A DNA stretch of 35,201 bases, from positions 1-35,201 of the IMG/VR virus record IMGVR_UViG_3300033148_005736; one strand, 5' to 3'. Shown piece by piece: positions 14,402 through 35,201 of this stretch. Made by a program: the position numbers and the translations under genes. The number at the start of each line of letters is the position of its first letter. Position 1 is the first letter of the stretch. The notes beneath the pieces were generated by a model. It saw only the letters and a program-made list of their open reading frames with translations, was not told the origin of the DNA and searched no databases. The stretch is from a virus.

Positions 14402-14402
14402 A

Positions 14403-14627: not shown

Positions 14628-14648
14628 TTATTCCCCCTCATAAAATAT

Positions 14649-15083
14649 TTATTTTGCTTTCTTCTCTTTTACTTCCTCTTTATATTTTAAAAGGAAATAG
14701 TTTTTAATCTGTTTCATAAAATCTTTAATGTCATTAATGTCTTTTACTTTTGTTTCATCAAATGCAATCAAGTAATCAAAAAGAGCATCTTTGGCGACTA
14801 ACCCCATGGCATCCTCTAAATCTTTTGCTTCTTTTTTAGATAGATCTTCAGCCTGTAGCTGATCTTTTAATGGTTGGTTTATAGTTATAGTGTCAACCAT
14901 TTGGCCAAATTCGTCTTGCACTTGTTCTATTTGCAACCATTGAGCATCTTCATGCTCCCCTGTTAATGGGTCCATTGGAGCAATTCCTTTAACGAACTCT
15001 CCCCAATCACCAGTTGGTTTTTTAGCTTTTATTACATGACCTGTTCCATCTATGGTAGCAAAAAAATTCTTCATTTCACTCAT
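14649..15083 (-). CDS. Fibre-associated protein, possible fibre assembly chaperone
   Basis: 144 aa from ATG 15083, which shares ATGA with the fibre stop and has GGGAG 8 bases upstream; ATG 15098 is less likely. Starts MSEMKNFFATIDGTGHVIKA and ends in a lysine-rich coil (KYKEEVKEKKAK). A two-part shape with a short N-terminal strand region and a helical C-terminus, immediately downstream of a fibre, is what fibre chaperones look like, but no motif proves it. Confidence 0.5.
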   Translation of the reverse strand: MSEMKNFFATIDGTGHVIKAKKPTGDWGEFVKGIAPMDPLTGEHEDAQWLQIEQVQDEFGQMVDTITINQPLKDQLQAEDLSKKEAKDLEDAMGLVAKDALFDYLIAFDETKVKDINDIKDFMKQIKNYFLLKYKEEVKEKKAK

Positions 15084-17875: not shown

Positions 17876-18660
17876 AATTCAATTTCCCTTAATACGATGC
17901 CCGTTAATTTATAATAACCAGGCAGATTTTGAGCTACAAGCTCTTTAAGTTCATAGCCTGTTCCATCCTTGCTGCCGCTAACAGACTCTAAGATAACTTT
18001 ATGGTAAGCGTCTCTATCGTCTATGTCTGGCATGAATTCAAATTGACCCTTTTTGGTTATCTCTACCATAAAGGAATTCATGTCCGAAATACCATTAGTG
18101 TTTGTTTTAATTACGTTGCCGTCCTGAATAAGATCGGTAATGAAATTAAACGACATTTTAAAAAAACCTACTAAACCGAAGCTTATAGTCTCAACTAAAC
18201 CGCTTGCCGATTGATTGACACTAGCGTCTTGCCTTTTCTTAAAGTTACCTGCTGGTGTGTAATCTTGTAGCTGAAATTGAGGGGAGTATGAGCTTCCGCT
18301 TTCTGAATCACTGATGTAAGCACTCGACCCAGTAAGATCAATACTGCCTGTAAAACCTAAGAGAGCAAAGGGAGATAAACCTTTCTGAGCCCCCGTCCCT
18401 ATTAATAACTCAAAAGTATCTGTGCCAGTAATTGTTATCTGCTTAGAAGGCCGATCTATTGTGATTGTATAAGTCTCATCCCCAACTGCATCCATAGCTG
18501 TTTTTATTTTAGTTAACAGATCTGAATAAACATAAGTACCAGGATCTATCGTCGCTACGAGCTCAACGTTGCCAGCGTTAGGCTCGAGAAAGTTTAGAAT
18601 ATTATTCTCTGATGTTATCTCAAGCCCGTAATAAAATATTGAAAAAGTCTTAATAGCCAT
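17872..18660 (-). CDS. Tail tip protein, possible distal tail protein
   Basis: 262 aa. Begins MAIKTFSIFYYGLEITSENN and contains LVATIDPGTYVYSDLLTKI, an ITIDRPSKQITITGTD strand pair, and a C-terminal domain (FMVEITKKGQFEFMPD, YELKELVAQNLPGYY). It is encoded between tape measure and fibre, where the distal tail protein is usually found in siphoviruses. No definite family match; assignment rests on position. It overlaps the tape measure gene by one base and the fibre gene by four. Confidence 0.5.
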   Translation of the reverse strand: MAIKTFSIFYYGLEITSENNILNFLEPNAGNVELVATIDPGTYVYSDLLTKIKTAMDAVGDETYTITIDRPSKQITITGTDTFELLIGTGAQKGLSPFALLGFTGSIDLTGSSAYISDSESGSSYSPQFQLQDYTPAGNFKKRQDASVNQSASGLVETISFGLVGFFKMSFNFITDLIQDGNVIKTNTNGISDMNSFMVEITKKGQFEFMPDIDDRDAYHKVILESVSGSKDGTGYELKELVAQNLPGYYKLTGIVLREIEL

Positions 18661-20738
18661 TATGCATTCACCAGTATGTCGTTTGAGTTTGTGACTTCGC
18701 TTAGTAGTTCTGCTATCTGCGTTGCGGTTGCGATTGGATCAAGTACGGTGCCCTCTACATTTACTGTTATAGCTGTTGTCTTTTTTAATTCTTCTTCCCC
18801 TGCAACATCTGGCTCCCCTGTAAATGATGGCTCTGCGGGCGCTCCGGCACTTACCCCAGCTGTTGATGCGCCACCACCTGCTGAGCCAAAGAAACCCTTA
18901 ATTACAGATCCAAGCAGTACAAGGCTTGCTCCAGCTGCGATAGACCCAGCAGGGTCCAAGCCCTTTAAAGCTATCTTAGCTATTCCATCTGCTATATAAA
19001 AGTTACCCAACATGATAGCTAGATCACCTATAATATTTGCAACAGATGCGCCGAATGCTTTAAAAACATCCTCGCCCGATGCTAAAGCAGTACCGATGGA
19101 TTGAATACCAGAGGATATACCTCCAGCTAAAGTATTTTTAAAACCATCTCTTAATGTCTTTGCTTTTTGCTTAGAAGCTTTAGCAAAACTCTCTAAAGCT
19201 AAAGACAGATCGGCTAGTTCTTGTTTAGTTCTATTTACTAAACTAGATCCTAATAATCCCTCACCTTCCTCTGAGATACCAATTCCTTCTTCTGATAATT
19301 CGGTGGCAATAACTCCCCTGAGCTCATTGATTTTAGATTTCATTAACTCTAAAGCACCAGGACCTGGAACAATATCTTTTCCAAGCTTTTCACCTATTGT
19401 TTCGCCATCTGGTGTTATGCCAAGCTGCCTAATCTCTTTTCTTATCCTACCTATTTGCTCAAGACCAGAATCTACTGCTCCAGATAAACCTTTAGTCAGG
19501 CTCTCCCCTATTAATGGGATCTTTTTTATATAACCAACTACTTCAATGAACATCTCAATTGCTAATATTTCTATTCTTTTAAATGCTAAACCAAAAGCAT
19601 TCTTAAGAGCGAATGCTGTATCATGCCCTGCATTTTTTAAATCTATAAAGTTCTTAACAAGATATCCGAAAGCTACAATAGCTGCACCAATTCCTGTCGA
19701 GACTAATGCAACCTTAAGGAATCCAAGAGATGTAACTGTTGCTAAAATTTTAGCATTTAAAATAACTATAGCATCGCCTAAGTAAAGTGCTGAGATAGCG
19801 GCAGTCTCGAAACCACTCACTAAAGCTAAACCAATAGCTTGCGATTTTAAAAGAGCTAGCCCTAATCCAATAGATGCCAAGGCTCCAATTATCGTACTAC
19901 TCCACTCTTTTACTTTTAAAATACTTTCATCAAAGAACCTTGCTAAATCTAAATCAGAAATTGATTTTGACAATTCCCCAAATGATTTAGCTATACTTTT
20001 AATTGTGTTAATTAACACAGGAGATTTAGTTATTGTAAAACCGATCTCTTCAAGCACGTCACCAAAAGAATTAGAGAGCTGATCAAATGCACCAGAGAAA
20101 GTATTTACTTTTGCCGCTGCTGCGCCACCGAATTTACCCTCTAACTGAGTCAATGCATTTGCGAAAGTCTCTGCCGCTGAACTGCCTTTTTTAATTATCA
20201 ATCCATATCTAGTAAAAGAAGAAATCTCCCCCGTGGCTGCCTTTCCTACAAGTGTCGCCGCTGCCTTTAAATCAATGCCAAGTGCTGCGCTTAAGTCTGC
20301 TGCTGCTGTGGTTGCTCTCTTAAGACCCTCAACTTCTAACGCTCCCAATGATTGAATCAATGCAGCAGTATCTAAAAGAACTTCATCTCCGATAGTTGAA
20401 ACACTCTGTAGGGACGATGCATATTCCTGCATACTTTGAGATGCTTCTTCACTGTATTGACCAGATAATTTCAGAGCCGTGTTTAAATTATTTACCGCAT
20501 CTTCCTGCTGAATTGCTGCAGCGATTATTTTCCTGCCAGCAAAAGCTGCGCCGAATGCGGCAGCGGCACCTATTAATCTATTCCTTAAAGTTTTAAGACC
20601 AGAGTCAAAACCTTTTTGGAAATTATCACCAGCTTTTTTACCAGATGTTTTTGATTTCTTAGCTACTTTTTGGAAGCCTTTTACTATCTTTCCATTGTCT
20701 AAGACTATCTCAATTTCTATTCTATCGTCAGCCACCAC
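18660..20738 (-). CDS. Tape measure protein
   Basis: 692 aa from GTG 20738 with AAGGAAG upstream. The N-terminus is lysine-rich (KKSKTSGKKAGDNFQKGFDSG), followed by Ala/Leu-rich helical stretches. Hydrophobic segments of the kind that could span the membrane (for example AAISALYLGDAIVILNAKI and AIVAFGYLVKNFI) lie at about 290-370, and the end is low-complexity (GSAGGGASTAGVSAGA). At about 0.15 nm per residue the tail would be about 100 nm. The first bases overlap the frameshifted chaperone ORF. Confidence 0.88.
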   Translation of the reverse strand: MVADDRIEIEIVLDNGKIVKGFQKVAKKSKTSGKKAGDNFQKGFDSGLKTLRNRLIGAAAAFGAAFAGRKIIAAAIQQEDAVNNLNTALKLSGQYSEEASQSMQEYASSLQSVSTIGDEVLLDTAALIQSLGALEVEGLKRATTAAADLSAALGIDLKAAATLVGKAATGEISSFTRYGLIIKKGSSAAETFANALTQLEGKFGGAAAAKVNTFSGAFDQLSNSFGDVLEEIGFTITKSPVLINTIKSIAKSFGELSKSISDLDLARFFDESILKVKEWSSTIIGALASIGLGLALLKSQAIGLALVSGFETAAISALYLGDAIVILNAKILATVTSLGFLKVALVSTGIGAAIVAFGYLVKNFIDLKNAGHDTAFALKNAFGLAFKRIEILAIEMFIEVVGYIKKIPLIGESLTKGLSGAVDSGLEQIGRIRKEIRQLGITPDGETIGEKLGKDIVPGPGALELMKSKINELRGVIATELSEEGIGISEEGEGLLGSSLVNRTKQELADLSLALESFAKASKQKAKTLRDGFKNTLAGGISSGIQSIGTALASGEDVFKAFGASVANIIGDLAIMLGNFYIADGIAKIALKGLDPAGSIAAGASLVLLGSVIKGFFGSAGGGASTAGVSAGAPAEPSFTGEPDVAGEEELKKTTAITVNVEGTVLDPIATATQIAELLSEVTNSNDILVNA

Positions 20739-21036
20739 GTAACTTCCTTGCCAAGTTTTGAGCTACCTCTTTATAAGATAACACCTTTCCTCTAGGGCTT
20801 TCAAACCCAGCTTTAAATATTCTCTGCTTACTAGAGAACATCTTTTTGCGGTCCTCTCGCTTGTCTAAATGTGGGTATGTTACCCCTTCCATAAAAATCA
20901 TAGCCTCTCTCGACTCTACAACTTCAATCCCTAGCCAATATGACTCAAACTTAGGACTAGGCAGGTTGTCGATATACTCATCCGTCCAACCATAAAACCT
21001 AGCCATCATTACTTTTCTAAACTCGTAAAAGCTTAG
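20728..21036 (-). CDS. Tail assembly chaperone, -1 frame part (gpT-like)
   Basis: This is the downstream ORF reached by a -1 shift at 21036-21042. Read from CTA at 21036 it gives LSFYEFRKVMMARFYGW then TDEYIDNLPSPKFESYW, without a stop up to 20728. The ATG pair at 21009/21006 has no convincing ribosome site, so most product should come from the fusion with the upstream chaperone. The helical SFxEFxxxMMARFYGW...EYI start is typical of the second half of gpG-gpT proteins. The fused protein would have about 187 aa. Confidence 0.8.
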   Translation of the reverse strand, partial: LSFYEFRKVMMARFYGWTDEYIDNLPSPKFESYWLGIEVVESREAMIFMEGVTYPHLDKREDRKKMFSSKQRIFKAGFESPRGKVLSYKEVAQNLARKLRGG

Positions 21037-21290
21037 TTTTTTTTAGAACCACCAACTAAATTCTCAGCTAACATCGTCAATTGATTAACGCTTAACTTTG
21101 CCGCTGCCTCTTTTGGCATCCCTAAACCACAAAGGAGATTAAGAAAAATAGTAATCTCATCCCCCTCTGCATTCTTTAATTTCTTGCTATACTCATGTGC
21201 TTGCAAAGCTGTTGGGACCTCCATTGGATAAACAGAAGTCCCTATCTTTACATTTACTTTAGGGCTTGCACCCAGATCTATCGTTTCCAT
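21033..21290 (-). CDS. Tail assembly chaperone, zero frame (gpG-like)
   Basis: 85 aa from ATG 21290, with AGGTGG 8 bases upstream; GTG 21302 would add four residues. Starts METIDLGASPKVNVKIGTSV and has a helical ALQAHEYSKKLKNAEGDEI region and a leucine-rich helix before VGGSKKN and TAA. This strand-then-helix shape directly between tail tube and tape measure is that of the siphovirus tail chaperone. The protein wraps the tape measure during assembly and is made in a long and a short form. Confidence 0.8.
   Translation of the reverse strand: METIDLGASPKVNVKIGTSVYPMEVPTALQAHEYSKKLKNAEGDEITIFLNLLCGLGMPKEAAAKLSVNQLTMLAENLVGGSKKN
21036..21042 (-). promoter_or_regulatory. -1 programmed frameshift site A AAA AAC
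   Basis: On the minus strand the heptamer A AAA AAC is in the correct phase with zero-frame codons AAA and AAC and is followed at once by TAA. Slippage by -1 continues as CTA AGC TTT into the downstream ORF. This is one of the strongest bacterial slippery sequences. Stop codon proximity and the missing alternative start for the downstream ORF strengthen the case. Confidence 0.85.
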
Positions 21291-21313
21291 ATTTGCTACC
21301 ACCTATCTATGGA

Positions 21314-22177
21314 TTATTGAAAAGCATCACCGAAAGTAATGATGTTTGTAATGTTAGAAGCATAACTAGTATCAGCAAAACCCTGCCAAGTAACACTTAA
21401 AGTCTTTGGATTCTCGCCAGAGAAAAGAAGTGATCCTGGAACTGGAACAGCTAACATCAAAACAGTATCTGTAATATTATCTACTGCATTTACTGGGCGC
21501 AGAACCAATCGAGCAGAATCAACAAGAAGATTTTGGCCTTGCTTACTTGTTCCAACTCCAAAAGTCTTAGTGCCAGGGTTATACTCCCCTCCATAAAAAC
21601 CATAAATATCTTCTAGCTTAGAGGAAGTAGTCTCTAGCATTGTAGTTGAAATCTCAGCCGTCTCCATCCCTTGATATAAAGCTGCCAAAGGAGTAACACC
21701 AGTTTGATGCGCCTTGACAATAAAGTTTGCTGGACTCGCTGAAAGCTCAATGTCGCCCTCTAACAATCCAAGATCTAAATCCTTACCACGGCGACAAATA
21801 TCAACAGATATTCCAGCATCAACATCTGCACTATCATCCTGTAGACCGATAGCAGCTGCCTTTGCAGTTACCTCTGCTCCACTGACAGATGATGAGAAAC
21901 CAGCGTCTCCATCAATTGCAGTGCTCATCAAACCAGCAATTATTGCTGCCGAATCACCACTAGTGATAATCACCTGCAAGCCAGTCTTGCCAGCTGGGGC
22001 TGGATCAACTGATACGCCTGTATCAAACCACACATAATGTGTGCTCATTAAGTTAAAATATTTCCCGTCTAATGATCCTGCAACGTCAGCGACAGTCGTA
22101 ATCTGATGACTCGCCTCGATTTGCCATAGAATATTAACGGGAGAAATCGCTACGTTATTTGCTGCATTGCATGCCAT
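21314..22177 (-). CDS. Major tail tube protein
   Basis: 287 aa. Starts MACNAANNVAISPVNILWQI, has a strand-rich body (DIELSASPANFIVKAHQTG, LARLVLRPVNAV-like) and an end TLSVTWQGFADTS. Size, beta-rich composition and position directly before the tail chaperones identify it as tail tube protein. Residues about 20-135 may form an inserted domain (LQVIITSGDSAAIIAGLMST). The ribosome site AAGGAG lies 6 bases before ATG 22177. Confidence 0.7.
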   Translation of the reverse strand: MACNAANNVAISPVNILWQIEASHQITTVADVAGSLDGKYFNLMSTHYVWFDTGVSVDPAPAGKTGLQVIITSGDSAAIIAGLMSTAIDGDAGFSSSVSGAEVTAKAAAIGLQDDSADVDAGISVDICRRGKDLDLGLLEGDIELSASPANFIVKAHQTGVTPLAALYQGMETAEISTTMLETTSSKLEDIYGFYGGEYNPGTKTFGVGTSKQGQNLLVDSARLVLRPVNAVDNITDTVLMLAVPVPGSLLFSGENPKTLSVTWQGFADTSYASNITNIITFGDAFQ

Positions 22178-22188
22178 TGTAATTCTCC

Positions 22189-22617
22189 TTAATTAAAAAC
22201 GCACATCGTTTGTGCTGTAAATTCCATTTCTAATAAAATATCGTTCTGGTTTGTCGCAGAACGAGGGTTGATAATAAATCCACCTGGAACAATGTTTTTT
22301 ATCTCAGGCGTGATCCTATTTGAAAGCTTTAAAACTTCATTGTAAATTGATTCTACCTCTACCATTACATTATCTACAGTTTGTGAACTATCATCTGAAG
22401 TATAACCCTTAAAAAAAGCTCGAACAACCACGGGTACATTAAATTCGTGAATAGTTTGATTTGCATTACTAATATCTGTTGAGCCTAACTCTAAGTGATA
22501 AGCCTTATCTAAAATGTTCTCTGGGATATTGTCATAATCAAATGCATCTCTGTGCTCGGTGTATCCTAGTGTCTCCATTCTCGCTCTGAAGTAGGGGAGT
22601 ATATTAACTAAACTCAT
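22189..22617 (-). CDS. Putative tail terminator / tail completion protein
   Basis: 142 aa. Starts MSLVNILPYFRARMETLGYT; middle strands HEFNVPVVVRAFFKGYT with DNVMVEVESIYNEVLKLSN; end NDILLEMEFTAQTMCVF. The alternation and position immediately before the tail tube gene fit a tail terminator, but no signature motif is visible. It overlaps the upstream gene by four bases. Confidence 0.55.
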   Translation of the reverse strand: MSLVNILPYFRARMETLGYTEHRDAFDYDNIPENILDKAYHLELGSTDISNANQTIHEFNVPVVVRAFFKGYTSDDSSQTVDNVMVEVESIYNEVLKLSNRITPEIKNIVPGGFIINPRSATNQNDILLEMEFTAQTMCVFN

Positions 22618-23321
22618 GATCTCACCAAGTCTTTCGTCTGGATATCTATGAATTCATTTTCTTGTATTATTCCATCACCATTTAAATCCAGCCTTAAAAA
22701 AGCTTTATCTCTCGCTCTGTTAGCTCGCTTAAAATACTTGTTTGCTTTTTCTAGGAACTTATCTCCTTCTGAATTTTGGAAATCATCGAATATAAGACCC
22801 AATGTCCAAAACTTAGACCAAGTGTTGACCTCTGCAATATCTATGATGGCGTCTTTTGTAATTCTATTACCGCTTGAATCATAGATGCCCTCATCATTTA
22901 GAACATCCAGGATAAGACCCTGCACTGCACGATGCTTGTTAAGAAAGGAATTTCTCCCTTGCTCGACATACTTTAAAACATCACTCTCATAAGGGGTTAT
23001 GTCATCGTCGCTTGAAAATAACTTATCATCTGCTTGAGTGATGATCTCAATATCTCTTGTCGAAGTGACTGGAAGGCCATCCGTGGTCACTCGCACTGCA
23101 ACAGTAACGGTTCTCGAAATCCCTGAGTAATTCCAGTCTAAATACCAATCCCGAGAAGAAGTACCTGTTACATTAATAAAACTCTCTGTACCCTCTGGCT
23201 GTATCTCAACCAGTGTAATGGCTGCCGAACCTTTTGCGACATAAGTCTTATCTGCTTTGATTCTTGTTTTATCGTCTATTTGTACAATATTTTCTGTTTC
23301 TATAATTGGAAAAATAGCCAT
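22614..23321 (-). CDS. Virion protein with C-terminal EF-hand calcium loop
   Basis: 235 aa. About 20-100 is a strand-rich Ig-like segment (KTYVAKGSAAITLVEIQ, RTVTVAVRVTTDG), 100-200 is helical with an adaptor-like core (NSFLNKHRAVQGLILDVLN, WSKFWTLGLIFDDF). Near the end is the loop DLNGDGIIQENE at 212-223, which matches the EF-hand pattern exactly (D1, N3, D5, G6, I8, E12). Position between small virion genes and the tail terminator suggests a head-tail connector. Calcium binding is inferred from motif only. Confidence 0.65.
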   Translation of the reverse strand: MAIFPIIETENIVQIDDKTRIKADKTYVAKGSAAITLVEIQPEGTESFINVTGTSSRDWYLDWNYSGISRTVTVAVRVTTDGLPVTSTRDIEIITQADDKLFSSDDDITPYESDVLKYVEQGRNSFLNKHRAVQGLILDVLNDEGIYDSSGNRITKDAIIDIAEVNTWSKFWTLGLIFDDFQNSEGDKFLEKANKYFKRANRARDKAFLRLDLNGDGIIQENEFIDIQTKDLVRS

Positions 23322-23324
23322 GCT

Positions 23325-23570
23325 CTATTTCCTCCCCACACACTCATTACATTTATCTTCTATATGCTTGACCTTTAACTCTAGCAAAGAAGTCTTCTCC
23401 TCTAAATGAGAAAATGATTCTTTAATATCTTTAACGTCCGTCGCTATAGCATTTAGCGGATTAAAAACTAACTGTTTAACAAGAGCCCACGCTCCTGCGA
23501 AAATAGCTGCCCACAATGGCACAGTCGCCATTAATAAATCTGTAAAAGTCACAGCTATCTCCATTTTCAT
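23325..23570 (-). CDS. Membrane-anchored coiled-coil protein, candidate holin or spanin
   Basis: 81 aa. A transmembrane helix (LLMATVPLWAAIFAGAWALV, about 12-31) is followed by a long coiled coil (LNAIATDVKDIKESFSHLEE, then SLLELKVKHIEDK) and CNECVGRK. Either ATG 23570 (ATGA overlap with the preceding stop) or ATG 23564 (7 bases from a run of G) may be used. It lies within virion genes, away from the endolysin, so a role in DNA ejection is as possible as lysis. Confidence 0.5.
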   Translation of the reverse strand: MKMEIAVTFTDLLMATVPLWAAIFAGAWALVKQLVFNPLNAIATDVKDIKESFSHLEEKTSLLELKVKHIEDKCNECVGRK

Positions 23571-24055
23571 GCCCCCCCGAGCTCCTTATATAATCTATGT
23601 GGTGTATTTGCTTTCTCTGGATCGACATGGATAACCTTAGCTGGAGCTATCTCAACAATGTATCGGTTGTATTCCTCGATTGCCTCGTGACATATCGAAG
23701 CCGTTTGACTATCTACAATATTAGAGCCCTCTTGAGGGATCGGAATTGAAAACACCACACGATTAAAAGCATGGAGAGCTAGTCCAAAAACATAACTCCA
23801 GTCATATTTAGGTCGCTCTTTCCTGTTTAAGTTGCCTATCACAGCAACCTCATGTCTATAATTTAGGTCATATTCTTTCTCATGAACGATGTATCTCTTT
23901 TCTAAAAATAAAGATACATGCTCGTACTTATAACCACCAACAGTCCAATGTGACACCATATTGTTTGACCATTGGATGCCGAAGTGAGAACAGTCCTCCC
24001 CTAAGCCCCAGGCAACTATGTCCATTTTTTTTCGCTTAGTCCAAAGAAACGTCAT
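23567..24055 (-). CDS. Permuted NlpC/P60-like (LRAT/YiiX-like) protein
   Basis: 162 aa from ATG 24055, with GAGGT 6 bases upstream and a TAATG overlap; an earlier start at 24076 is less likely. The N-terminal DCSHFGIQW (histidine in S-H-F-G-I) and the C-terminal DSQTASICHEAIEEYN (cysteine in ICHEA) have the order His then Cys expected of circularly permuted papain-like enzymes of the YiiX/LRAT kind. In between are WTVGGYKYEHVSLFLEK and YDWSYVFGLALHAF. If active it could cut peptidoglycan or a lipid-linked substrate from the virion. Catalytic residues are inferred from motif only. Confidence 0.6.
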   Translation of the reverse strand: MTFLWTKRKKMDIVAWGLGEDCSHFGIQWSNNMVSHWTVGGYKYEHVSLFLEKRYIVHEKEYDLNYRHEVAVIGNLNRKERPKYDWSYVFGLALHAFNRVVFSIPIPQEGSNIVDSQTASICHEAIEEYNRYIVEIAPAKVIHVDPEKANTPHRLYKELGGA

Positions 24056-24738
24056 TATACTACCTCGTGTAGCCATGCATTTAATGCTATATACTTGTCG
24101 CTGGCTCCGTTATTTGTGTACTCACACCTAATGATCATTCCCATATATAAATCAGCGTCATAGTTAGATGTATTCTCATAAATTCCGCTTGCTGGTAACT
24201 CAGCATTAAACCCAAACTGATTTAATATAAAATTAGGATAGTATGTTGGCTCAGGAGATATCGGGGCTCCTGAATAAGCATTTGTCGCCGTATCTAATAT
24301 ATAAAAATTTAATGTATCTTTTAACTCAGAACCGAAAATATTAGCGCCTGTAAATTTCGCATGTCCATAAGAGATAACAAAATCAATATTGCCAGTCTCA
24401 CCGGCTAATATAGTCCCATTTGCTCCATGCACTCTTTTATATAATTTTTTCTCAACACCACCCACTAAAACTGTCTTTGCGGTAAATGCCGGCGAACTAC
24501 CAACATCTACTGTCGAGGCAAAATAACCCTTTAAATGATCTATACCAATAGATGCCTCTAAATCATTAGTGCCGTCACTTACAACACAATCACCATTTAT
24601 TATATCGGACAATAAAGCGAGCTCCGATACAAACAAATGCCTTTCAACAGACTGAATGGTGTAGCTATTTGACGCTGATATTATTTGCCCTGCATAAATC
24701 TTATCTGAATCAGTTACGTTTTTTAAAATCACACTCAT
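24055..24738 (-). CDS. Virion-like protein, unknown
   Basis: 227 aa from ATG 24738, with GGGAG 8 bases upstream and an ATGA overlap with the previous gene. Starts MSVILKNVTDSDKIYAGQII and is strand-rich throughout (TIQSVERHLFVSELALLSD, YKRVHGANGTILAGETG, LYMGMIIRCEYTNNGAS). Part of a run of beta-rich small proteins between capsid and tail. No family recognised; decoration or fibre-like protein is likely. Confidence 0.55.
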   Translation of the reverse strand: MSVILKNVTDSDKIYAGQIISASNSYTIQSVERHLFVSELALLSDIINGDCVVSDGTNDLEASIGIDHLKGYFASTVDVGSSPAFTAKTVLVGGVEKKLYKRVHGANGTILAGETGNIDFVISYGHAKFTGANIFGSELKDTLNFYILDTATNAYSGAPISPEPTYYPNFILNQFGFNAELPASGIYENTSNYDADLYMGMIIRCEYTNNGASDKYIALNAWLHEVV

Positions 24739-25157
24739 ACTGGAACGCTCCCTGTTGTAAAGGCAATACATACTGGGTTATCTGCTTGGCCAGTATTAGT
24801 AACCTTTGCCCGTAATTCATTCCCGTATGTTATAGGAATCGGAGGAGCTGGAGCATAATCAGAGCCACGACTAGCCACAACTGAGACAGTACCTAAAAGA
24901 GTTTCTGTTGATCCATCATATTCGATTATTTCAACATCGAAAGTTGCACTATTATTATCGTTTGTTACTGAAATTAAAGTCATCTCAGCACCAACTAATC
25001 TAATCGGGAATCCTGTTTTATTTGTTATAACAGGTCCAACCTGTAAATAAGCGTTTTTAACTGTTCCAGACCTAGCAAAAGCAGCCCCTGGAGCCGCAAC
25101 ACTTTGTAGCTCTGCCAATATGTTAGTTTTTTTAAGACCTGGAGCGCCTACTGCCAT
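24735..25157 (-). CDS. Beta-rich virion-like protein, unknown
   Basis: 140 aa, ATG 25157 after GAGGATAACTG. Starts MAVGAPGLKKTNILAELQSV and continues with strands KNAYLQVGPVITNKTGFPI, TFDVEIIEYDGSTETLLG and ELRAKVTNTGQ, a pattern of jelly-roll or Ig-like domain. It resembles its two neighbours upstream in plan, not in detail. Function unknown; a decoration or minor capsid part is plausible. Confidence 0.55.
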   Translation of the reverse strand: MAVGAPGLKKTNILAELQSVAAPGAAFARSGTVKNAYLQVGPVITNKTGFPIRLVGAEMTLISVTNDNNSATFDVEIIEYDGSTETLLGTVSVVASRGSDYAPAPPIPITYGNELRAKVTNTGQADNPVCIAFTTGSVPV

Positions 25158-25465
25158 CAGTTATCCTCGAAGTTTATTATTATCTCATAGTCTGCTGTGC
25201 CAGATAGTGTCTTTACTCTAAGCTGACGTATCTCCCCTTTTATATTCCAACTAAGAAAAGAACTCTTATCAATCGTTTTAAAACTCGTGCCGCCATCAAA
25301 CGACACGAGAAATTCGGTGTTGCTAACATTATCAATGCCGACACCACTTATGATCTGACCAGATGCCAGCGGTACTAGTGACTCAACAATGCCTGCCGTA
25401 CCCGCATAAACCTGAGTACGCCCTACATTATCCTGTCCTTCAAACTGTGGCGCTAAATCAGCCAT
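25157..25465 (-). CDS. Small beta-rich virion-like protein
   Basis: 102 aa, ATG 25465 after GGAGAG. Starts MADLAPQFEGQDNVGRTQVY; strands PLASGQIISGVGIDNVS, TEFLVSFDGGTSFKTID and TADYEIIINFED. It overlaps the next gene by one base. Composition and size fit a one-domain decoration or adaptor protein. No family recognised. Confidence 0.55.
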   Translation of the reverse strand: MADLAPQFEGQDNVGRTQVYAGTAGIVESLVPLASGQIISGVGIDNVSNTEFLVSFDGGTSFKTIDKSSFLSWNIKGEIRQLRVKTLSGTADYEIIINFEDN

Positions 25466-25479
25466 CCATTACTCTCCTA

Positions 25480-26031
25480 TTAAGGAATGTCGACTATTGA
25501 AACTCTTCCATGAAGGTCTGAAGCTTTTCGTGGATTTCCTCTCAAAATCAATTCCTGTGTGCCAGTAGCCCCTGCTGTGATCTGCAAGTTCTTTGGCTCT
25601 TCGCTATAAGTGTACTGACCGGCTCCTGTGTACCATGACTCTAGAACTTCTTCTGTTCCATTATCGTCATGTACAAGCGTCCATGTGCAGTCACGAGAAC
25701 AAGAAGACATGTAATCAGCCATGTTGTAAACTTCGCTAACTGTTAAAACGATCGTGACAACATCGTTGTCAGCACCAGCAGAAACAGAACCGGAATCAAG
25801 CAGCCCTTTTCCTCTAAGGATAGTTCCGGCGACAGCTACAATATCAACAGGTAGCTTACCAGCCGCTGTTAACGCAGGGAGAACGACGTTCCCTGAACTG
25901 TCCTTAAAACTAAAACCAATTAAACCAGCTTTACCAGCGCCGGCTTCGCCTTCTACTCTACTGATCGCAGCTTCACCTGCACCAGTGACATCATCCTCTA
26001 ATATTGCAAAACTTTCTTTTAAATCTGACAT
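25480..26031 (-). CDS. Virion-like protein, unknown (183 aa)
   Basis: Starts MSDLKESFAILEDDVTGAGE with AAGGAAGG upstream. An acidic helical opening (about 1-30) is followed by strands (KAGLIGFSFKDSSGNVVLP, VSAGADNDVVTIVLTVSEV) and a C-terminal domain with SCSRDCTWTLVHDDNGTEE and LQITAGATGTQELIL. The pair of cysteines in SSCSRDC is unusual here. A role on the virion surface is inferred from neighbours. Confidence 0.55.
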   Translation of the reverse strand: MSDLKESFAILEDDVTGAGEAAISRVEGEAGAGKAGLIGFSFKDSSGNVVLPALTAAGKLPVDIVAVAGTILRGKGLLDSGSVSAGADNDVVTIVLTVSEVYNMADYMSSCSRDCTWTLVHDDNGTEEVLESWYTGAGQYTYSEEPKNLQITAGATGTQELILRGNPRKASDLHGRVSIVDIP

Positions 26032-26047
26032 TTAAAACCTTCCTTAG

Positions 26048-26515
26048 TTAACTTTCTAAACCCTGTAAATAGCATTCCACATCTGTTGCAGGTCTACCAG
26101 AATTAGATAAAATCTCGACCTTTATAACACTGCCCGCCGAGGCAGAACGCTCTATATTAAAAACAAAATCATCATTTAAATTACCACTACCTATGCGACC
26201 GCTACCGACTACTTGCGAATCAATTAAAATCTCATAAGTAACATGTTGTCTGCTCGTTATCCTCACAGACTTTAACGCTATACTCTTACCCACTGGTACT
26301 GTTTCATTCACTAATGTTTGAAGCGTCCCTGGGGTAGTTATACTCTGGACATCTACGAAAAATGGAGTGCCATTAGAGCCACCCAATGCTGCAATAATTG
26401 CATCTAATTTATCGTGAGATATTCCATCATTTACTCGCCTGTCGACACCACCGTCTTTTGTCGATTCAATATACGCTGCTTGATCTCTTTGAGGCTCAGT
26501 CCCTGGGATAGCCAT
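26048..26515 (-). CDS. Beta-rich virion-like protein, unknown (155 aa)
   Basis: Starts MAIPGTEPQRDQAAYIESTK after AAGGGTGG. A helical charged N-terminus (to about 45, KLDAIIAALGG) leads into a strand domain PFFVDVQSITTPGTLQTLV, SIALKSVRITSRQHVTYEI, VFNIERSASAGSVIKVEIL. This half resembles the 25157-25465 protein in strand pattern. Likely minor capsid or decoration protein; no family recognised. It overlaps the upstream gene by one base. Confidence 0.55.
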   Translation of the reverse strand: MAIPGTEPQRDQAAYIESTKDGGVDRRVNDGISHDKLDAIIAALGGSNGTPFFVDVQSITTPGTLQTLVNETVPVGKSIALKSVRITSRQHVTYEILIDSQVVGSGRIGSGNLNDDFVFNIERSASAGSVIKVEILSNSGRPATDVECYLQGLES

Positions 26516-26721
26516 TACTTACCACCCTTAGCGAATATCTCTTTATCATTATCAAAATCAAACCATGCGTACCATTTCTTATCTGACTCAACCCAAACGA
26601 TTGAATAAGAAAAAACAATCCCACGCTTGAGATTGTTTGAACGCATCAAGCGCTGCAAACCCATTGGACTTGCAGCACTTAAAAAATTAGGAATACGTGT
26701 TAACGATACCTCTGGTGCCAT
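26515..26721 (-). CDS. Small conserved-looking phage protein downstream of capsid
   Basis: 68 aa. Starts MAPEVSLTRIPNFLSAASP and continues MGLQRLMRSNNLKRGIVFSY and DKKWYAWFDFDNDKEIF. Trp/Tyr/Phe-rich strand (KKWYAWFDFD) suggests a compact beta fold. Starts 6 bases after the stop of the -1 frame capsid extension, and no AGGAGG-like site lies in optimal position, so it may be translated by ribosomes that finish the extended capsid. Function unknown. Confidence 0.55.
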   Translation of the reverse strand: MAPEVSLTRIPNFLSAASPMGLQRLMRSNNLKRGIVFSYSIVWVESDKKWYAWFDFDNDKEIFAKGGK

Positions 26722-26726
26722 TAATC

Positions 26727-26810
26727 TTAGTTTGCATCCTTAACGATTAATGCAGACTGAGTAGCGCCAACAGTTTCGCCTTTTCCGTTGTCAATGCCTA
26801 ACTGTAGACC
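26727..26810 (-). CDS. Capsid C-terminal extension in the -1 frame
   Basis: 27 codons in the -1 frame relative to the capsid gene read GLQLGIDNGKGETVGATQSA then LIVKDAN and TAA at 26727-26729. It begins where the zero-frame AAG (26810-26812) could slip by one base. Glycine-rich hydrophobic ending LIVKDAN is typical of capsid C-termini, while the zero-frame end is an abrupt VYS stop. Arms ACAGTT (26800-26805) and AACTGT (26770-26775) form a stem just downstream. Either a frameshift makes a long capsid form or one G is missing from the sequence. Confidence 0.6.
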   Translation of the reverse strand, partial: GLQLGIDNGKGETVGATQSALIVKDAN

Positions 26811-27583
26811 TTTATACCGAAAAGTTGATCCATAGCTATTCGCTTAGCATCTACGCCATACTCGTTAGCTCCCTGCTCGCTCATAGATAGACCCTTTTGG
26901 AATCCAATTGCAAGACCAGTTTTCTCAAACATGAAATACTGCTGAGCAGCCAAGTTGTTAGAAACAACAACTGGTACTCCGTAAACAGATCCAATAACGC
27001 CACTAGGGATGTTAGAAGTTCCATAAAGTTGAGCCTCTGTGAACTGCTGAATCTTAAGCATTGCTTTACGCTGAGCAGGGGAGATGAAAAGAGCAACCTG
27101 ACTCATATCAGCGTCTTTCAATTCTAGATCCTCTTGCATGTCTAAAACGATATCACGAGTGATGTCTCCAACTGCAGAAGGGATTACAACACCAGCAGTT
27201 TCAGCTGTAGCAACAATCTGAGTGTCAACATAACGCCCTTGAGCACCAGCTGCACGTCCTGCATTTTCAAGCTCTGCATTTATAGCTGTTTGAGCCTTAC
27301 TCATAGAGTCGATGATCCAAGCAACGTAAGCATTTTTGTCTAACAACAAAGTATCCAAGCTATCAGTCAATGCAGTAGCATCTCCCGCAACACCTGCAAC
27401 TCTATCAATAACTGTAAAGCTAGAAAGCTTAGGAAAAGAAATTTGCTTAGCTCCGAGCTCTGCCATAGATGAAACGTCTGAAACGTAAGGCATGAACTTA
27501 GCTTTAAAAGCTAATTCTTTTTGTACTTCTGCTTCGATTAAATCACGACGAGTTACGCCGTATGTTTGAATAGCGTCAGCCAT
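26798..27583 (-). CDS. Major capsid protein (HK97/P22-coat-like)
   Basis: 261 aa as read. Starts MADAIQTYGVTRRDLIEAEV with a helical N-arm, then KQISFPKLSSFTVIDRVAG, a spine-like helix DTLLLDKNAYVAWIIDSMSK, and DMSQVALFISPAQRKAMLKI then VPVVVSNNLAAQQYFMFEK, the FISP/VPVVVSN pattern of HK97-fold coat proteins. Directly after the scaffold gene. The C-terminus breaks off at TAG 26798-26800, while a plausible continuation is in the -1 frame (see 26727-26810). With it the protein would have 285 aa. Confidence 0.88.
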   Translation of the reverse strand: MADAIQTYGVTRRDLIEAEVQKELAFKAKFMPYVSDVSSMAELGAKQISFPKLSSFTVIDRVAGVAGDATALTDSLDTLLLDKNAYVAWIIDSMSKAQTAINAELENAGRAAGAQGRYVDTQIVATAETAGVVIPSAVGDITRDIVLDMQEDLELKDADMSQVALFISPAQRKAMLKIQQFTEAQLYGTSNIPSGVIGSVYGVPVVVSNNLAAQQYFMFEKTGLAIGFQKGLSMSEQGANEYGVDAKRIAMDQLFGIKVYS

Positions 27584-27595
27584 TATATTCTCCTT

Positions 27596-28183
27596 TTAAA
27601 GACCATGCTTTTCAGCGTAAGCAATCTTTTGCTTTGTGGTCATATCTGACAAGTCGGGCTTGTCTCCCTTTAAGTTAGGATCTTTCAGATTATGATTATC
27701 TATTTTAGGCCCAGCCTTAGAAAATAAATATGGCATATTCTGTCGGGCATCCTCCAACATCAATTTAATATCCGATGAATCCGCTCTGAATGTCTCTTGG
27801 TTTACTTCCAATGTTTGGAGATCAACTAATCGAGCAAGAGCAGAATTATCTACGCATCCCATCTCAATTGCTACAGACTTAACCTGGCTTTCTAAAGTTG
27901 AGTAAGCCAAATTCCCAAGGTCTTTCTTATAACGGTCATCTCTTTCTGCAACTTGCTTTCTGAGTGATGATATAAGTTCGTCCTTCTTGCCTTCCGATTC
28001 CAACTTATCATGTTCAAAGATTTCTAAACGCTCTTTAAGGAGAACATTCTCCTCTACAGCTTTCTTTTTTTCTTTGAGATATCGCTGGTCCCTTTTGTAA
28101 TCTGCATCTGATTTGGTATGTTCCCTGTGTTCGTCCCCGACGTTTTCACTTGGCGCAGCCCCGCTGCCATTACTTTCTTGCAT
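27596..28183 (-). CDS. Scaffolding protein
   Basis: 195 aa. Polar and acidic-basic: N-terminal SGAAPSENVGDEHREHTKSD is unstructured, then a long coiled coil (about 35-100, KEKKKAVEENVLLKERLEIF), and a basic helical end (DMTTKQKIAYAEKHGL) that could contact capsid protein. This layout and its position directly before the major capsid gene identify it as scaffold. No protease gene is seen between portal and capsid. Confidence 0.8.
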   Translation of the reverse strand: MQESNGSGAAPSENVGDEHREHTKSDADYKRDQRYLKEKKKAVEENVLLKERLEIFEHDKLESEGKKDELISSLRKQVAERDDRYKKDLGNLAYSTLESQVKSVAIEMGCVDNSALARLVDLQTLEVNQETFRADSSDIKLMLEDARQNMPYLFSKAGPKIDNHNLKDPNLKGDKPDLSDMTTKQKIAYAEKHGL

Positions 28184-28215
28184 GTTACTACCTCTTTTTT
28201 ATGTTTAGCAAGAGC

Positions 28216-28773
28216 TTATTTGCCCCTGATCTTTCTCCTAAATTCATCAAGCACCATTTTCCTCACTCGGCGCTTACCTACCTTGCCTAGACCTATAAAA
28301 TCATAGCCAATGTTTAACTGCTTTAACCATTTGTATATCTTTGAGTTTCTCTTCCCGTCTCGACGAACGTCCTTAGTAAACTTAATAAACAAACTATTCT
28401 TCTCGATCGAATACCCGAGCGATCTTAATAACTCACCAGTAAATGTTAGATTAGACTTACTTCTAGTAGGCTCAAAGAACTCTTTGTCAACTGTCTTTAG
28501 TATCTCGTCTGGCTCTGGAATAGGTATCACCTGACCACTACTACTCGTGCGGAACTTCACTAGACCTAACCGCATAGCTAAATATGATTTAGATAACTTA
28601 GGGAGAGCCTTGCCAGACTTTTCATTCTTACCTGATCTGGCCTGTTGAACTATTCGACCTACTACGAATTCACCTATTTGCTTCTGCATACGCTTAGACG
28701 ATGCCGCATCCTGGAGCTGCTTTCTAACATTTCTTAACGCTATATTAAGACCTTTAATCCTAACCTTCGCCAT
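28216..28773 (-). CDS. Neck/tail completion-type protein, first of two
   Basis: 185 aa, very basic (MAKVRIKGLNIALRNVRKQL, KQIGEFVVGRIVQQARSGKN, C-terminal VGKRRVRKMVLDEFRRKIR). The pattern AKVRIKG...VRKQL...GEFVVGRI...ARSGK...ALPKLSKSYL resembles the HK97 gp10/phage neck families that connect head and tail. The middle LTFTGELLRSLGYSIE is also typical (FTGELLxSLxY). The start overlaps the upstream gene by 14 bases. Family assignment by pattern only. Confidence 0.6.
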   Translation of the reverse strand: MAKVRIKGLNIALRNVRKQLQDAASSKRMQKQIGEFVVGRIVQQARSGKNEKSGKALPKLSKSYLAMRLGLVKFRTSSSGQVIPIPEPDEILKTVDKEFFEPTRSKSNLTFTGELLRSLGYSIEKNSLFIKFTKDVRRDGKRNSKIYKWLKQLNIGYDFIGLGKVGKRRVRKMVLDEFRRKIRGK

Positions 28774-29332
28774 CCCGAAACCCCTTAGCTAACCCTACAA
28801 CGAAATCCGCAAACGCTGACTTTCCTTGCTCTTCCCTTACTTTTAAAGCTTCCTTGATATCGTCTTTGATTTCTTTTTTAATCTCTTTGAGCTCACCCTT
28901 TGAAACGCCAAAGAATGGGCGCTTCGGGACCGTATCTCCAGTTACATGATTAAATGCCTTAGCATCTTGATCATCACCAGTATCCCAACCAATAGTTATG
29001 TTATTACCTTTGTTCTTAGTAACATCCATAAGCTCCATCATGTCGCCAGTAAGCTTCATATTGACTTTCTTTTTAGACTTACCCGCTGCACGAAAATCTA
29101 ACGACTTAGCATATTCTTTAGAATAAGGAGACTTAAGCTTTACCTTAGAGCCACGCCCCTTAGAATCAAAGCGCATCCCCTTACCTTCAGAGGTGCGCTG
29201 CTTAATCTTATCTAAGATCGCCTGCCCTACAGCCTCCCTAAGGTCTGGCTTACCAGAAAAATCAATCCCGAATTCATCCTTGAGATTGATTGTCTGACTC
29301 ACCCTTCTCTTCGTTACTTTCGGTGCTGACAT
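28760..29332 (-). CDS. Neck/virion morphogenesis-type protein, second of two
   Basis: 190 aa. ATG 29332 follows GGAGC at 8 bases and lies 59 bases inside the portal gene. Basic N-terminus (APKVTKRRVSQTINLKDEFG), MKLTGDMMELMDVTKNKGNN, FNHVTGDTVPKRPFFGVSKG and a helical charged end. The GDxVPxRPFFGVS element is characteristic of phage virion morphogenesis (gpG/Mu gpG-like) tail-completion proteins. Why two such basic proteins lie between portal and scaffold is unclear. Confidence 0.6.
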   Translation of the reverse strand: MSAPKVTKRRVSQTINLKDEFGIDFSGKPDLREAVGQAILDKIKQRTSEGKGMRFDSKGRGSKVKLKSPYSKEYAKSLDFRAAGKSKKKVNMKLTGDMMELMDVTKNKGNNITIGWDTGDDQDAKAFNHVTGDTVPKRPFFGVSKGELKEIKKEIKDDIKEALKVREEQGKSAFADFVVGLAKGFRDGEG

Positions 29333-30839
29333 CAGGTTGCTCCATCATTGGTTGCCTATCTTCTATTTGCTTTAAATCAAACTCTTTGATCTTTTCTAAA
29401 ATAACCTCAGCTTCTTCATCACTTATCTCTCTTAGCTCAGCTAATGCTTCAACTTCTGAGATCATACCCATCTCTAGGCGATTCTGGACTGATTTCTCAA
29501 TCTCTTCTACAGACTTAAATGCACGAGGAGGAGCGTACTTAACGCTAACTGTGATCTTCTCATTTAGTTTAGGACCAGTAAATTTCGGGGATACCTCATT
29601 TGTACCCTGCAAAACGTTATTCCAAGCAATGATTAAATCTAACTCAGACTGTTCGATCTGCTTAAATAAATCCGCATCCTCACTTGAGGCTTGAAATCGA
29701 TCCAGTAAAGCCAATGCTCTATCTATTCCTGATGTATACTGCCTAGTCTGCCCTGATGTTATAGCTGATGTATCCTCGCCCTCTGCTGATAAGAAAAAGT
29801 TAATCGTTGCCTCTAACAATTGAAGGCTACCAGCCATATCAGGAGATGGAGAAACAAAACTAAACTCTGGCTTCATCTCTGGAGCTTTAGGATTTGGCTT
29901 TAGATGCAGCACATGATTAGGACCGATGCGCATGTTCTGTGGCAATTTCTCACTGACAATAACCGCCTGACTATAGCCCTGGAGTCTTGAGATATTACTA
30001 AGATCAGATAGCACTAAAGAAAAATCAATTGCGAATTCTGTTATGTTCTGCCCTCGGCGTACATAGAACTGAAAATCCTTCTCATCAGATATATCAATAA
30101 ATGGTAGCATAGGAGCTATCGGATTTTCTTTTATCTCTGTTATATGTTTACCGAATCCATCCATTGTAAAATGCAATTCTGGAGTCCATACAACATAACG
30201 CTCCTGAGCACCTAGTCTATCATTAGGATCTGCTATCGTTTGATTTAGCCTATCGTTCTTATTATAGTCTTGATCTGTCTGAGATGTTGATCCAGGGGAG
30301 TTCATCTCATAGCTGGCTCTATTATCTAAATCCCAAACGTTTAGGATATAAGCATAAGCTTCCTCTGGATTATCTACATCTGGTATCACATCCAATTGCT
30401 GCATAGGAATAGCCTTCATTTTAAGACCACCTTTGCCATCAGGTATCATCATCGCTATGTTCTGTTGCTGTAATTTATAATACCTATTCGCTCTTTTATT
30501 ATTAGTATTTACCCGCAGATATTTATAAAGATTTTCGAGATGCTCGATCTCTTTATCGTTTGCACCTTCAAACGTTCTCTCTGGTGGCTCTGCATATAAA
30601 GAGGCCTTATCATTTATGATCTTCTTAGATACATTAATGCTTAATACTTTACGCATCTCGTTTACTGTCTTATCAGAGAACTCATTTCTAAGTTTCTCCT
30701 CTACATATCTATCCTGCCGATCCCAGTAAATATCAAAACGCTTTTGCATCTCTCGTTTTCTAGAGATGTTCTCGTCGCTCTTAATCTCTTCTATTATTTT
30801 TCTTCTTACCGCTTGATTAGTAAAATCTGGGTTAGCCAT
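29274..30839 (-). CDS. Portal protein
   Basis: 521 aa. SPP1 gp6-like shape: N-terminal helical region (KRFDIYWDRQDRYVEEKLRN), KVLSINVSKKIINDKASLYA (attachment to wing), a strand-rich stem region (AIPMQQLDVIPDVDNPEEA, AYAYILNVWDLDNRAS). The crown-clip helices have SLQLLEATINFFLSAEGED and TSGQTRQYTSGIDRALALLD. A charged, Gln/Glu-rich end completes it. It follows the large terminase with a one-base overlap (TAATG). Confidence 0.85.
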   Translation of the reverse strand: MANPDFTNQAVRRKIIEEIKSDENISRKREMQKRFDIYWDRQDRYVEEKLRNEFSDKTVNEMRKVLSINVSKKIINDKASLYAEPPERTFEGANDKEIEHLENLYKYLRVNTNNKRANRYYKLQQQNIAMMIPDGKGGLKMKAIPMQQLDVIPDVDNPEEAYAYILNVWDLDNRASYEMNSPGSTSQTDQDYNKNDRLNQTIADPNDRLGAQERYVVWTPELHFTMDGFGKHITEIKENPIAPMLPFIDISDEKDFQFYVRRGQNITEFAIDFSLVLSDLSNISRLQGYSQAVIVSEKLPQNMRIGPNHVLHLKPNPKAPEMKPEFSFVSPSPDMAGSLQLLEATINFFLSAEGEDTSAITSGQTRQYTSGIDRALALLDRFQASSEDADLFKQIEQSELDLIIAWNNVLQGTNEVSPKFTGPKLNEKITVSVKYAPPRAFKSVEEIEKSVQNRLEMGMISEVEALAELREISDEEAEVILEKIKEFDLKQIEDRQPMMEQPDVSTESNEEKGESDNQSQG

Positions 30840-32197
30840 TATCTCTCCACCATTGTTGCATCATCTTCAGCATCATCCATATCTATCTGATTACAAACTG
30901 CATAACCAATCGCAGTCGAGATATGTTGCGCCGCATAGCTGTCATCTTCTAAATACTGAGCGCCTTTTTTAAGTTTCGAAAAGCTAAGCCCGTCATGAGC
31001 ATGAGGCGCATCCTTATAAACTAGAAGTCTACGCTCTCCTAGACTATTGCACAACATTCCGTTGACAATATTATGCCTTTCTCTTATGCGAGGGTTCGAT
31101 CGCTGGACTATCATCTTGAATCTTATCTTCTTAGACTTATTATTTCTCGTGTTAGCCATGTATCTCTCTATGATCTCCCAATCATCATTATTCTGTCTAG
31201 TGTCTTTATGCTTACCCGTTGCATCTCCATCTATTAAATAGACTGTGTTGTAATCAAGTAAGCCTCTAGACATGAGCTCCTCACATGAATCCTCTGTGCG
31301 CATGCCCTCAACAACTACTTGATCGAAGATATGAAACACCCCTCTAACATATTGAATCAAGCACATAGATAGAGGCTTGCCCTTACCTATATTAAAATCC
31401 CAGCTCAGTATTACAGGAAAGTTATCGTTAACCCTATAGCTTGTATTCCTATAGTTAAGCTCCCTATCATACTGATGATAGATAACCTCAGTGACTATAT
31501 CTACCCACTTCCCATAAATCATTCTCTCTGCTGTTCTTGGATCTAACGATTGCAGTAGCCCACGCACATAACCTTTTGGGAGGAATTTATTTTCTGTTGT
31601 TAGTGAATAGTAGACATGTCTATTTGGACCACTAGGGGAGATGAAGTATTTAAAATGCTCTGACGACGGGCTACCTGGGTTTGTTAACGAACAAATCCAA
31701 TTCTCTTTTATGTGAGGCAAACGACCTACTCGCATCTTGATCTCATGATAGAAATCTAACGTATCATTCTCAGTTAGTTCCTCAATTACTGCGCAGCTAA
31801 GTTCCAATGATCTAACTTTTTCATAATTACCGTCTGCCCAAGAATATGGGATTATAATGCTGCCATTTTCAAATTCTATAATCCCTCTGTGCTTATTAAA
31901 CGAATATGATATATCTGTAGCAAGGTGATCTAGGACCTTTTTTAATATAGTATCTTTTAACGATGGCATTGATCTTCTGCCTAGAAGGGCCTGCGCATTA
32001 CTATACATCAAGCAGTGAGTTACAATTAAATGAGCACCGAGCAAACTCTTGGCACTTCCCACGCTCCCCGATAACAATAGTTCATGCACCATGCCTTCTG
32101 AATAATCAAAATTCTTTCTGATATCCTTGATAACTCTTAATTGAAAAGGAACTTGAGCAGGGTCAAATTCTGTTAATGTTGGCGTACTTCCTTGCAT
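30839..32197 (-). CDS. Terminase large subunit
   Basis: 452 aa. ATPase: Walker A variant GSVGSAKS (44-51, K50), Walker B CAVIEE (135-140, catalytic E139/E140), coupling motif SLTNPGSPS (170-178). Nuclease: VILSWDFNIGKG (D267), VYLIDGDATGK (D323/D325) and LEDDSYAAQHIS (D418/D419), the three acidic RNase H-like positions. GSVGSAKS instead of the classic GxxGxGKS is seen in several terminase families. It overlaps both neighbours by one base. Confidence 0.92.
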   Translation of the reverse strand: MQGSTPTLTEFDPAQVPFQLRVIKDIRKNFDYSEGMVHELLLSGSVGSAKSLLGAHLIVTHCLMYSNAQALLGRRSMPSLKDTILKKVLDHLATDISYSFNKHRGIIEFENGSIIIPYSWADGNYEKVRSLELSCAVIEELTENDTLDFYHEIKMRVGRLPHIKENWICSLTNPGSPSSEHFKYFISPSGPNRHVYYSLTTENKFLPKGYVRGLLQSLDPRTAERMIYGKWVDIVTEVIYHQYDRELNYRNTSYRVNDNFPVILSWDFNIGKGKPLSMCLIQYVRGVFHIFDQVVVEGMRTEDSCEELMSRGLLDYNTVYLIDGDATGKHKDTRQNNDDWEIIERYMANTRNNKSKKIRFKMIVQRSNPRIRERHNIVNGMLCNSLGERRLLVYKDAPHAHDGLSFSKLKKGAQYLEDDSYAAQHISTAIGYAVCNQIDMDDAEDDATMVER

Positions 32198-33239: not shown

Positions 33240-33474
33240 CCTTTGCTAAGCTTAAAATATCATCGAAGTCTATGCGTATCGGCGAGACGCCATCTGTAGG
33301 GTAGGTTGCTCTAATATTTTCACCAAATTCTATCGTGTACTCTAGACCTTCATCTAGTAGCACCAGGGCATACTTAAACTGAGTGAATAATTGGAGCACC
33401 CTCCCCTTACCGAAAGAAGTGATCACCGTTGCGCCTTTTATTATCTGTAGAGTTCTAAGGAGCTTAGTATCCAA
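33223..33474 (-). CDS. Small phage protein, unknown (83 aa)
   Basis: Start TTG 33474 (TTG GAT ACT), overlapping the CoiA-like gene by 11 bases; ribosome site GGTGAT. MDTKLLRTLQIIKGATVITS, GKGRVLQLFTQFKYALVLLD, YTIEFGENIRATYPTDG give a compact strand pattern resembling SH3-like (GKGRV...ALVLLD) folds. Function unknown. Confidence 0.5.
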   Translation of the reverse strand: MDTKLLRTLQIIKGATVITSFGKGRVLQLFTQFKYALVLLDEGLEYTIEFGENIRATYPTDGVSPIRIDFDDILSLAKVDDDR

Positions 33475-34153
33475 AATTCATCACCGCAAGCGTCCTTTCC
33501 CTTTTCTTAGCATCTGTCTTATCTTGAACTTTTTGATGATATTCGAACAAAGGATATTTATTGTTCTCCCCTGAAACTTTGCTTATGAAATCCGCAGCAC
33601 TAATAGTTTGTCCATAACCATATCTCCCATTGTTCGACTTTATCCTGAATAAAGTACCATTATTGAGATCTAAATATACGGTTTTCCTCATGTATTTTAT
33701 TGTTTTTCTATACCACAGCCATTCATAATTATAATCGTTGTCCTTATACCAAGGCTTCCGAGTCGGCTTATAGTATCTAAAATTCTTAGCAAACTTTTCT
33801 GCATTAATGATCCAAATCATTTTTCTATAGTTACACTCCCTAGCGTCAATATCCTCAGTGCTTATAGATGAATTTTGGAATTCAATAACGCTACCCATGT
33901 CAGAACAATAATCAGCCCTATGGTCTCCAACAGCTACCTCTACATTCTTTTCAGGAAAGACACTTTTCCACGCCCTATGCCATTCAGTCTCCCCTTCTGA
34001 GTAAGAGCATTCAGAGCCCGTATCGTGCGCCCAGTGCCAAGTATTTATATCCCCACACTTAGCTATAACCTTATCGCCACAGCCAGGGCAGGCAGCTATC
34101 AGCCATTTTTCAGGGGTAATCCTCCCTTTAATTATATGGGTTGCATAGAGCAC
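33464..34153 (-). CDS. CoiA-like competence-type nuclease
   Basis: 229 aa from GTG 34153 with GGGGAGAG upstream. A zinc-binding N-terminus (CPGCGD, C22/C25, then HWAHD, H40/H43) is followed by ETEWHRAWK (E57, H59, K63), GDHRADY (D81) and VIEFQNSSIS (E91, Q93, S96). This order, zinc ribbon then E-WH-K, RAD, EFQxSxI, is that of the CoiA family (PF06054), a PD-(D/E)XK nuclease-fold protein used in natural competence of Gram-positive bacteria and found in some phages. It overlaps the regulator stop by one base (TAGTG). Confidence 0.75.
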   Translation of the reverse strand: MLYATHIIKGRITPEKWLIAACPGCGDKVIAKCGDINTWHWAHDTGSECSYSEGETEWHRAWKSVFPEKNVEVAVGDHRADYCSDMGSVIEFQNSSISTEDIDARECNYRKMIWIINAEKFAKNFRYYKPTRKPWYKDNDYNYEWLWYRKTIKYMRKTVYLDLNNGTLFRIKSNNGRYGYGQTISAADFISKVSGENNKYPLFEYHQKVQDKTDAKKRERTLAVMNFGY

Positions 34154-34410
34154 TAAGAGACTCTCCCCTTATATTGCTCAAATTTATATGCAGCGTATAA
34201 ATTAATTAAAGACTCCTCTGGGATATCGTAAACAACCGACATTTTCTTAGCCATCTTCGCTGGTAGAGCTATTTTTCCATCTTCTATGTTATAGACGAAG
34301 TTTCTGGAGGTAGATCCAAGTTTTTTTGCAACATCCGTTGCTGAGAGCCCAAGCCCTATCCGAACTTTCTTAAGCAAAGCCCCATTAGCTTTTAGCGTAT
34401 TATCATGCAT
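34153..34410 (-). CDS. XRE-family helix-turn-helix regulator
   Basis: 85 aa from ATG 34410, chosen because AAGGA lies 10 bases upstream; the frame extends to ATG 34479, which has no ribosome site and a Lys-rich, Cys-containing extension of poor quality. HTH region: LLKKVRIGLGLSATDVAKKL then GSTSRNFVYNIEDGK, with the pattern (R)xxxGLSxxDVAxxLGxxxxxVxxxExG of Cro/CI-type repressors. It follows the candidate operators at 34480-34832 and probably controls itself and the divergent promoter. Whether it makes the phage temperate cannot be told from sequence. Confidence 0.8.
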   Translation of the reverse strand: MHDNTLKANGALLKKVRIGLGLSATDVAKKLGSTSRNFVYNIEDGKIALPAKMAKKMSVVYDIPEESLINLYAAYKFEQYKGRVS

Positions 34411-34542
34411 CGGTGCCGTGTCCTTGTTGTGGTTTAAAGTACACTTTTTTAGTTCCTTTTGCCTAAAAAATAAAGCCATTTCTATTCTTAATTGCAGCGC
34501 ATAGCATTAATTATTAGGGGAGCTAGCCTCCTTCCAGCCTGT

Positions 34543-34832: not shown

Positions 34833-35201
34833 TTAATGCTTTATTTTCTCAAAGAGGCTTACGTCAAAATTATCATCAACAAAAGAGAATCCAGCTATTC
34901 CCTTTTTTCTTTTCTTATCTTGAATAACTCCATCGCAATCACAATAGCCAATTCTATAGGAATCTTCCATAGCAATTCCACGACCTCGATATTGGCTTTT
35001 AAAATAAAGTGATGCTCTTTTGGCAAAGACCCTAAAAGATGTTGGTTTCATTTTCTCTTCTTCACATATATTTTTGTATTTAGCGTAAATTACTCGACTA
35101 CTTAAAAAGTAAGAATCAACGGCATCCTCCATCCTCATATATGTAGATAGAAAATAATAAATGCTATCACTGTCTTTTTGATACTCATCTATCGAGTCAT
35201 C
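34833..35201 (-). CDS. DNA primase-helicase, C-terminal end
   Basis: Continuation of the gene that runs off the left edge; bases 35088-35201 repeat 1-114. The residues here (VDSYFLSSRVIYAKYKNICE, FRVFAKRASLYFKSQYRGRG, DNFDVSLFEKIKH) form the C-terminal winged-helix-like domain that often follows SF3 helicases in phage primases, ending at 34833. It contains no start of its own: the internal ATG 35138 is the middle of the long frame. Confidence 0.9.
   Translation of the reverse strand, partial: DDSIDEYQKDSDSIYYFLSTYMRMEDAVDSYFLSSRVIYAKYKNICEEEKMKPTSFRVFAKRASLYFKSQYRGRGIAMEDSYRIGYCDCDGVIQDKKRKKGIAGFSFVDDNFDVSLFEKIKH
35088..35201. repeat. Terminal direct repeat, right copy
   Basis: Identical to 1-114. 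Closing the circle here restores the reading frame of the primase-helicase. Confidence 0.95.

Follow-up and report, generated by a model that had tools for sequence, protein, structure and literature searches.

A phage capsid gene that appears frameshifted in one metagenomic record very probably lacks a single base

The capsid locus and its genomic setting

We analysed a stretch of 35,201 nucleotides, hereafter the window, which comprises the whole of the IMG/VR virus record IMGVR_UViG_3300033148_005736 (positions 1 to 35,201). The features at the locus under study are as follows.

27596..28183, minus strand: upstream neighbour, with a weak match to a head scaffolding protein (phrog_206, E=7.7e-05)
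26798..27583, minus strand: major capsid protein gene, an open reading frame of 261 aa that ends prematurely (...QLFGIKVYS, then a stop), assigned by PHROG phrog_267 and by solved-capsid profile matches
26813..26814, minus strand: site of a one-base deletion (base absent relative to the sister contig L010); the two sequences differ nowhere else in the 15,262 bases aligned
26770..26805, minus strand: 6-bp stem, 26805..26800 (ACAGTT) pairing with 26775..26770 (AACTGT), sequence verified
26727..26811, minus strand: actual 3' end of the capsid gene, which falls in the -1 frame in this record and reads (K)GLQLGIDNGKGETVGATQSALIVKDAN before a stop; in frame in L001/L010, and nine more relatives have a homologous tail, likewise in frame
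26515..26721, minus strand: small downstream ORF of 68 aa, conserved beside the capsid gene in relatives (tblastn matches directly after that gene in L028 and L030)

The profile of phrog_267 (major head protein) matches the capsid frame over most of its length (residues 16-233, E=4.8e-19). Solved phage major capsid proteins match the profile of the capsid (9jwb_A, E=1.6e-11; also 8e16), and Pfam Phage_capsid_2 scored 22.8 bits, below the cut-off of 25 bits. The phrog_267 major head proteins are presumably of HK97 type. An AlphaFold2 model of the intact capsid reached a mean pLDDT of 46, too poor for the fold or the role of the tail to be read from it.

The original prediction held that the capsid frame ends abruptly at QLFGIKVYS and that the gene continues in the -1 frame, and the frame does end there, at position 26798. 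After GGT ATA AAG the -1 frame reads GLQLGIDNGKGETVGATQSALIVKDAN and closes with TAA at 26729..26727. This stop lies just ahead of the next ATG (26721), as had been described, with five intervening bases rather than the six reported.

Several features lie elsewhere in the window. A direct terminal repeat of 114 bp occupies positions 1-114 and 35088-35201, and a primase/helicase-like gene (DUF5906/D5_N) spans the two ends; the record is thus probably a circularly closed map of ~35.1 kb. The presence of a phage integrase family protein (6649-7185, Pfam E=1.2e-20) suggests a temperate phage or a recombinase. An HNH_3 endonuclease is encoded at 9285-9773 (E=2.1e-11), and a further HNH-like ORF was recognised by eye at 2960-3430. 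The CoiA-like protein at 33464-34153 (CoiA_N E=8.9e-10, the nuclease-like part matching more weakly) adjoins an XRE-like regulator, also judged by eye, at 34153-34479.

The large terminase of the window is intact and collinear with the 447-aa terminase of a relative. A sister record, L011, differs from the window by three substitutions and by a gap of 55 bp, which falls in its large terminase (L011 ~2012; window 31048-31102) and breaks the frame there. Among more distant phages, IMGVR_UViG_3300037805_000338 (41,474 bp; L025-L028) carries portal-like, capsid and tail genes that match those of the window in largely the same order, but for its large terminase the match is no more than marginal (E=2.8e-4); the terminase of IMGVR_UViG_3300045922_000203 (L029), by comparison, is 44% identical to that of the window. 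From this pattern of matches across the two relatives, the packaging module seems to have been exchanged between related phages.

Relatives covering the frame break

The most direct evidence comes from a sister contig, IMGVR_UViG_3300033149_000990 (L010; 15,262 bp), the one near-identical contig found to span the site. It aligns over its full length to window positions 14173-29433 with no mismatches, and the sole difference is a 1-base gap, the contig having an extra base between window positions 26813 and 26814, exactly at the proposed shift point. With that base, the capsid of the sister contig is a single frame of 285 aa ending in ...FGIKGLQLGIDNGKGETVGATQSALIVKDAN and a stop, and its last residues are exactly the -1 peptide of the window. 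A lost base had been raised in the original prediction as the rival to frameshifting, and the window does lack one at this point relative to its sister.

Nine further viral contigs (L013-L015, L017-L022), whose capsids are 46-66% identical to the intact protein, extend this comparison to more distant phages. In each, the zero frame reads through DQLFGxK[GAS][LM]Q and closes with a short tail whose last residues are ND or KDxN. All ten relatives covering the site thus have one continuous capsid frame in which the tail is encoded, and in none is the frame broken. Searches for capsid relatives among 50,697 named phage records found no close one, and in prokaryote genomes 13 pattern matches were obtained, none of them confirmed.

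Homologues that end at VYS, or a -1 peptide resembling no capsid C-terminus, had been named as the observations that would overturn a capsid continuation. The relatives instead continue past VYS, and the peptide matches the end of the sister capsid residue for residue and resembles the tails of the other nine; on these alignments we therefore take the continuation to be real rather than a product of chance. The capsid proteins of this phage group are accordingly ~270-285 aa long and share a conserved tail at the C-terminus.

Sequence at the shift point

The sequence at the break reads U_AUA_AAG and contains the tetramer A_AAG, which is known to be weakly shifty (PMC5009743). The only X_XXY_YYZ heptamer in the capsid gene of the window lies at codon 230; the end of the short frame has none, codon 258 offering the A_AAG tetramer only. 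This tetramer is present in the window because of the deletion itself, which turns ATC AAA GGT into ATA AAG GTC and thereby makes A_AAG at codon 258. Neither a slippery heptamer nor A_AAG at the equivalent codon occurs in any of the ten relatives covering the site.

The 6-bp stem, which begins ~4 nt 3' of the shift point, is present as had been described, and carries little weight. It occurs equally in the unbroken sister copy, which is identical there, and is thus not specific to the break. A perfect stem of at least 6 bp in a comparable arrangement accompanies 11% of sampled minus-strand positions of the window, and the 60 nt that follow the shift point have a folding energy at the 21st percentile for the window.

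Discussion

We consider it almost certain that the capsid is encoded by one continuous frame of 285 codons, from which the record lacks one base, and that no recoding signal is involved. The missing base lies inside codon 257 of the capsid gene; its absence shifts the final stretch, with 27 tail residues, to the -1 frame and creates the premature stop. As the sister contig and nine distant relatives have an unbroken capsid frame, the apparent frameshift has an ordinary explanation.

The cause of the loss is a separate concern. We lean towards an assembly or sequencing error, perhaps one taken up at low coverage, although this is a judgement rather than a calculation. Two observations were counted in its favour: across 15 kb nothing separates the window from the sister contig but an indel that breaks the frame of an essential gene, and the frame-breaking 55-bp gap in the terminase of the second sister record (3300033153_001953) indicates that gene-breaking gaps occur elsewhere in the contigs of this phage. 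False frameshifts derived from assembly are common and depend on coverage, as has been shown for bacterial genomes (Cooley and Wright 2024, PMC11017572). Against an error, the sister copy reads TATCAAAG here, and the base was not lost from a homopolymer; this is not the classic context of a base-calling indel and leaves room for a real mutation.

Such a mutation, a genuine one-base deletion in the sampled phage that yields a rare capsid variant, probably defective or truncated at its C-terminus, is a possible but less likely origin. The consensus of a contig usually reflects real reads, which, together with the non-homopolymer context, speaks for it. However, the remaining 15 kb are without difference from a contig whose capsid gene is intact, and variants that have lost the conserved end of an essential gene ought to be eliminated. 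When the viral collection was scanned for the exact pattern, with zero or one base permitted at the gap, the intact sister contig was the sole match and no second record with the deletion emerged; the window's own record may be passed over by such a scan. It is very improbable that the deletion is real and is tolerated through 'saviour' frameshifting, -1 slippage on the A_AAG that the deletion made then partly restoring the 285-aa capsid.

We regard as equally improbable the principal claim of the original prediction, that programmed -1 ribosomal frameshifting yields a short capsid and a longer one, as in gene 10 of T7 and T3, or in A2 and A118/A500. An open and capsid-like -1 frame, the U_AUA_AAG site and the nearby stem would all suit such a mechanism. 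They are outweighed by the relatives, every one of which has the long form in one frame and none a slippery site at that point, including a contig that differs by that single base in 15 kb. Furthermore, re-pairing of the P-site from AUA to UAU is poor, the stem downstream of the shift point is of a common kind, and the tail is the ordinary C-terminus of the family rather than a domain added to an otherwise complete capsid. The break, as judged from these comparisons, is neither a recoding signal nor a regulated feature of the phage group. That the capsid truly ends at VYS in the lineage of the window, the -1 peptide being coincidental, has only the frame as written in its favour, and is refuted by the identity of that peptide to the sister C-terminus and its similarity to those of nine relatives.

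Reading the break as a lost base eliminates what would have been a false case of programmed frameshifting in phage capsids, and corrects the annotation to the longer capsid with its conserved tail. It also illustrates that recoding should be inferred from a single metagenome contig only after comparison with sister contigs.

Comparison with known systems

Frameshifted capsids are known from several phages, with a -1 shift in gene 10 of T7 and T3, in Lactobacillus phage A2 and in Listeria phages A118/A500, and with a +1 shift in PSA (PMC5009743); PSA, the example given in the original prediction, thus shifts in the other direction from the -1 proposed here. As in these phages, the capsid frame of the window seems, close to its 3' end, to run on in a different frame. 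In those systems, however, the product is extended beyond the standard capsid, whereas in the family examined here the tail is in frame and the break is confined to one record. The gene otherwise resembles phrog_267 capsids in its profile match, its matches to solved chains (9jwb, 8e16) and the scaffold-like gene upstream, and differs from them in that the copy in the window is truncated by one lost base. It also resembles the spurious frameshift pseudogenes that arise in assembly (PMC11017572), in which near-identical sequences likewise differ by an indel that breaks an ORF, the cause in the present case being inferred.
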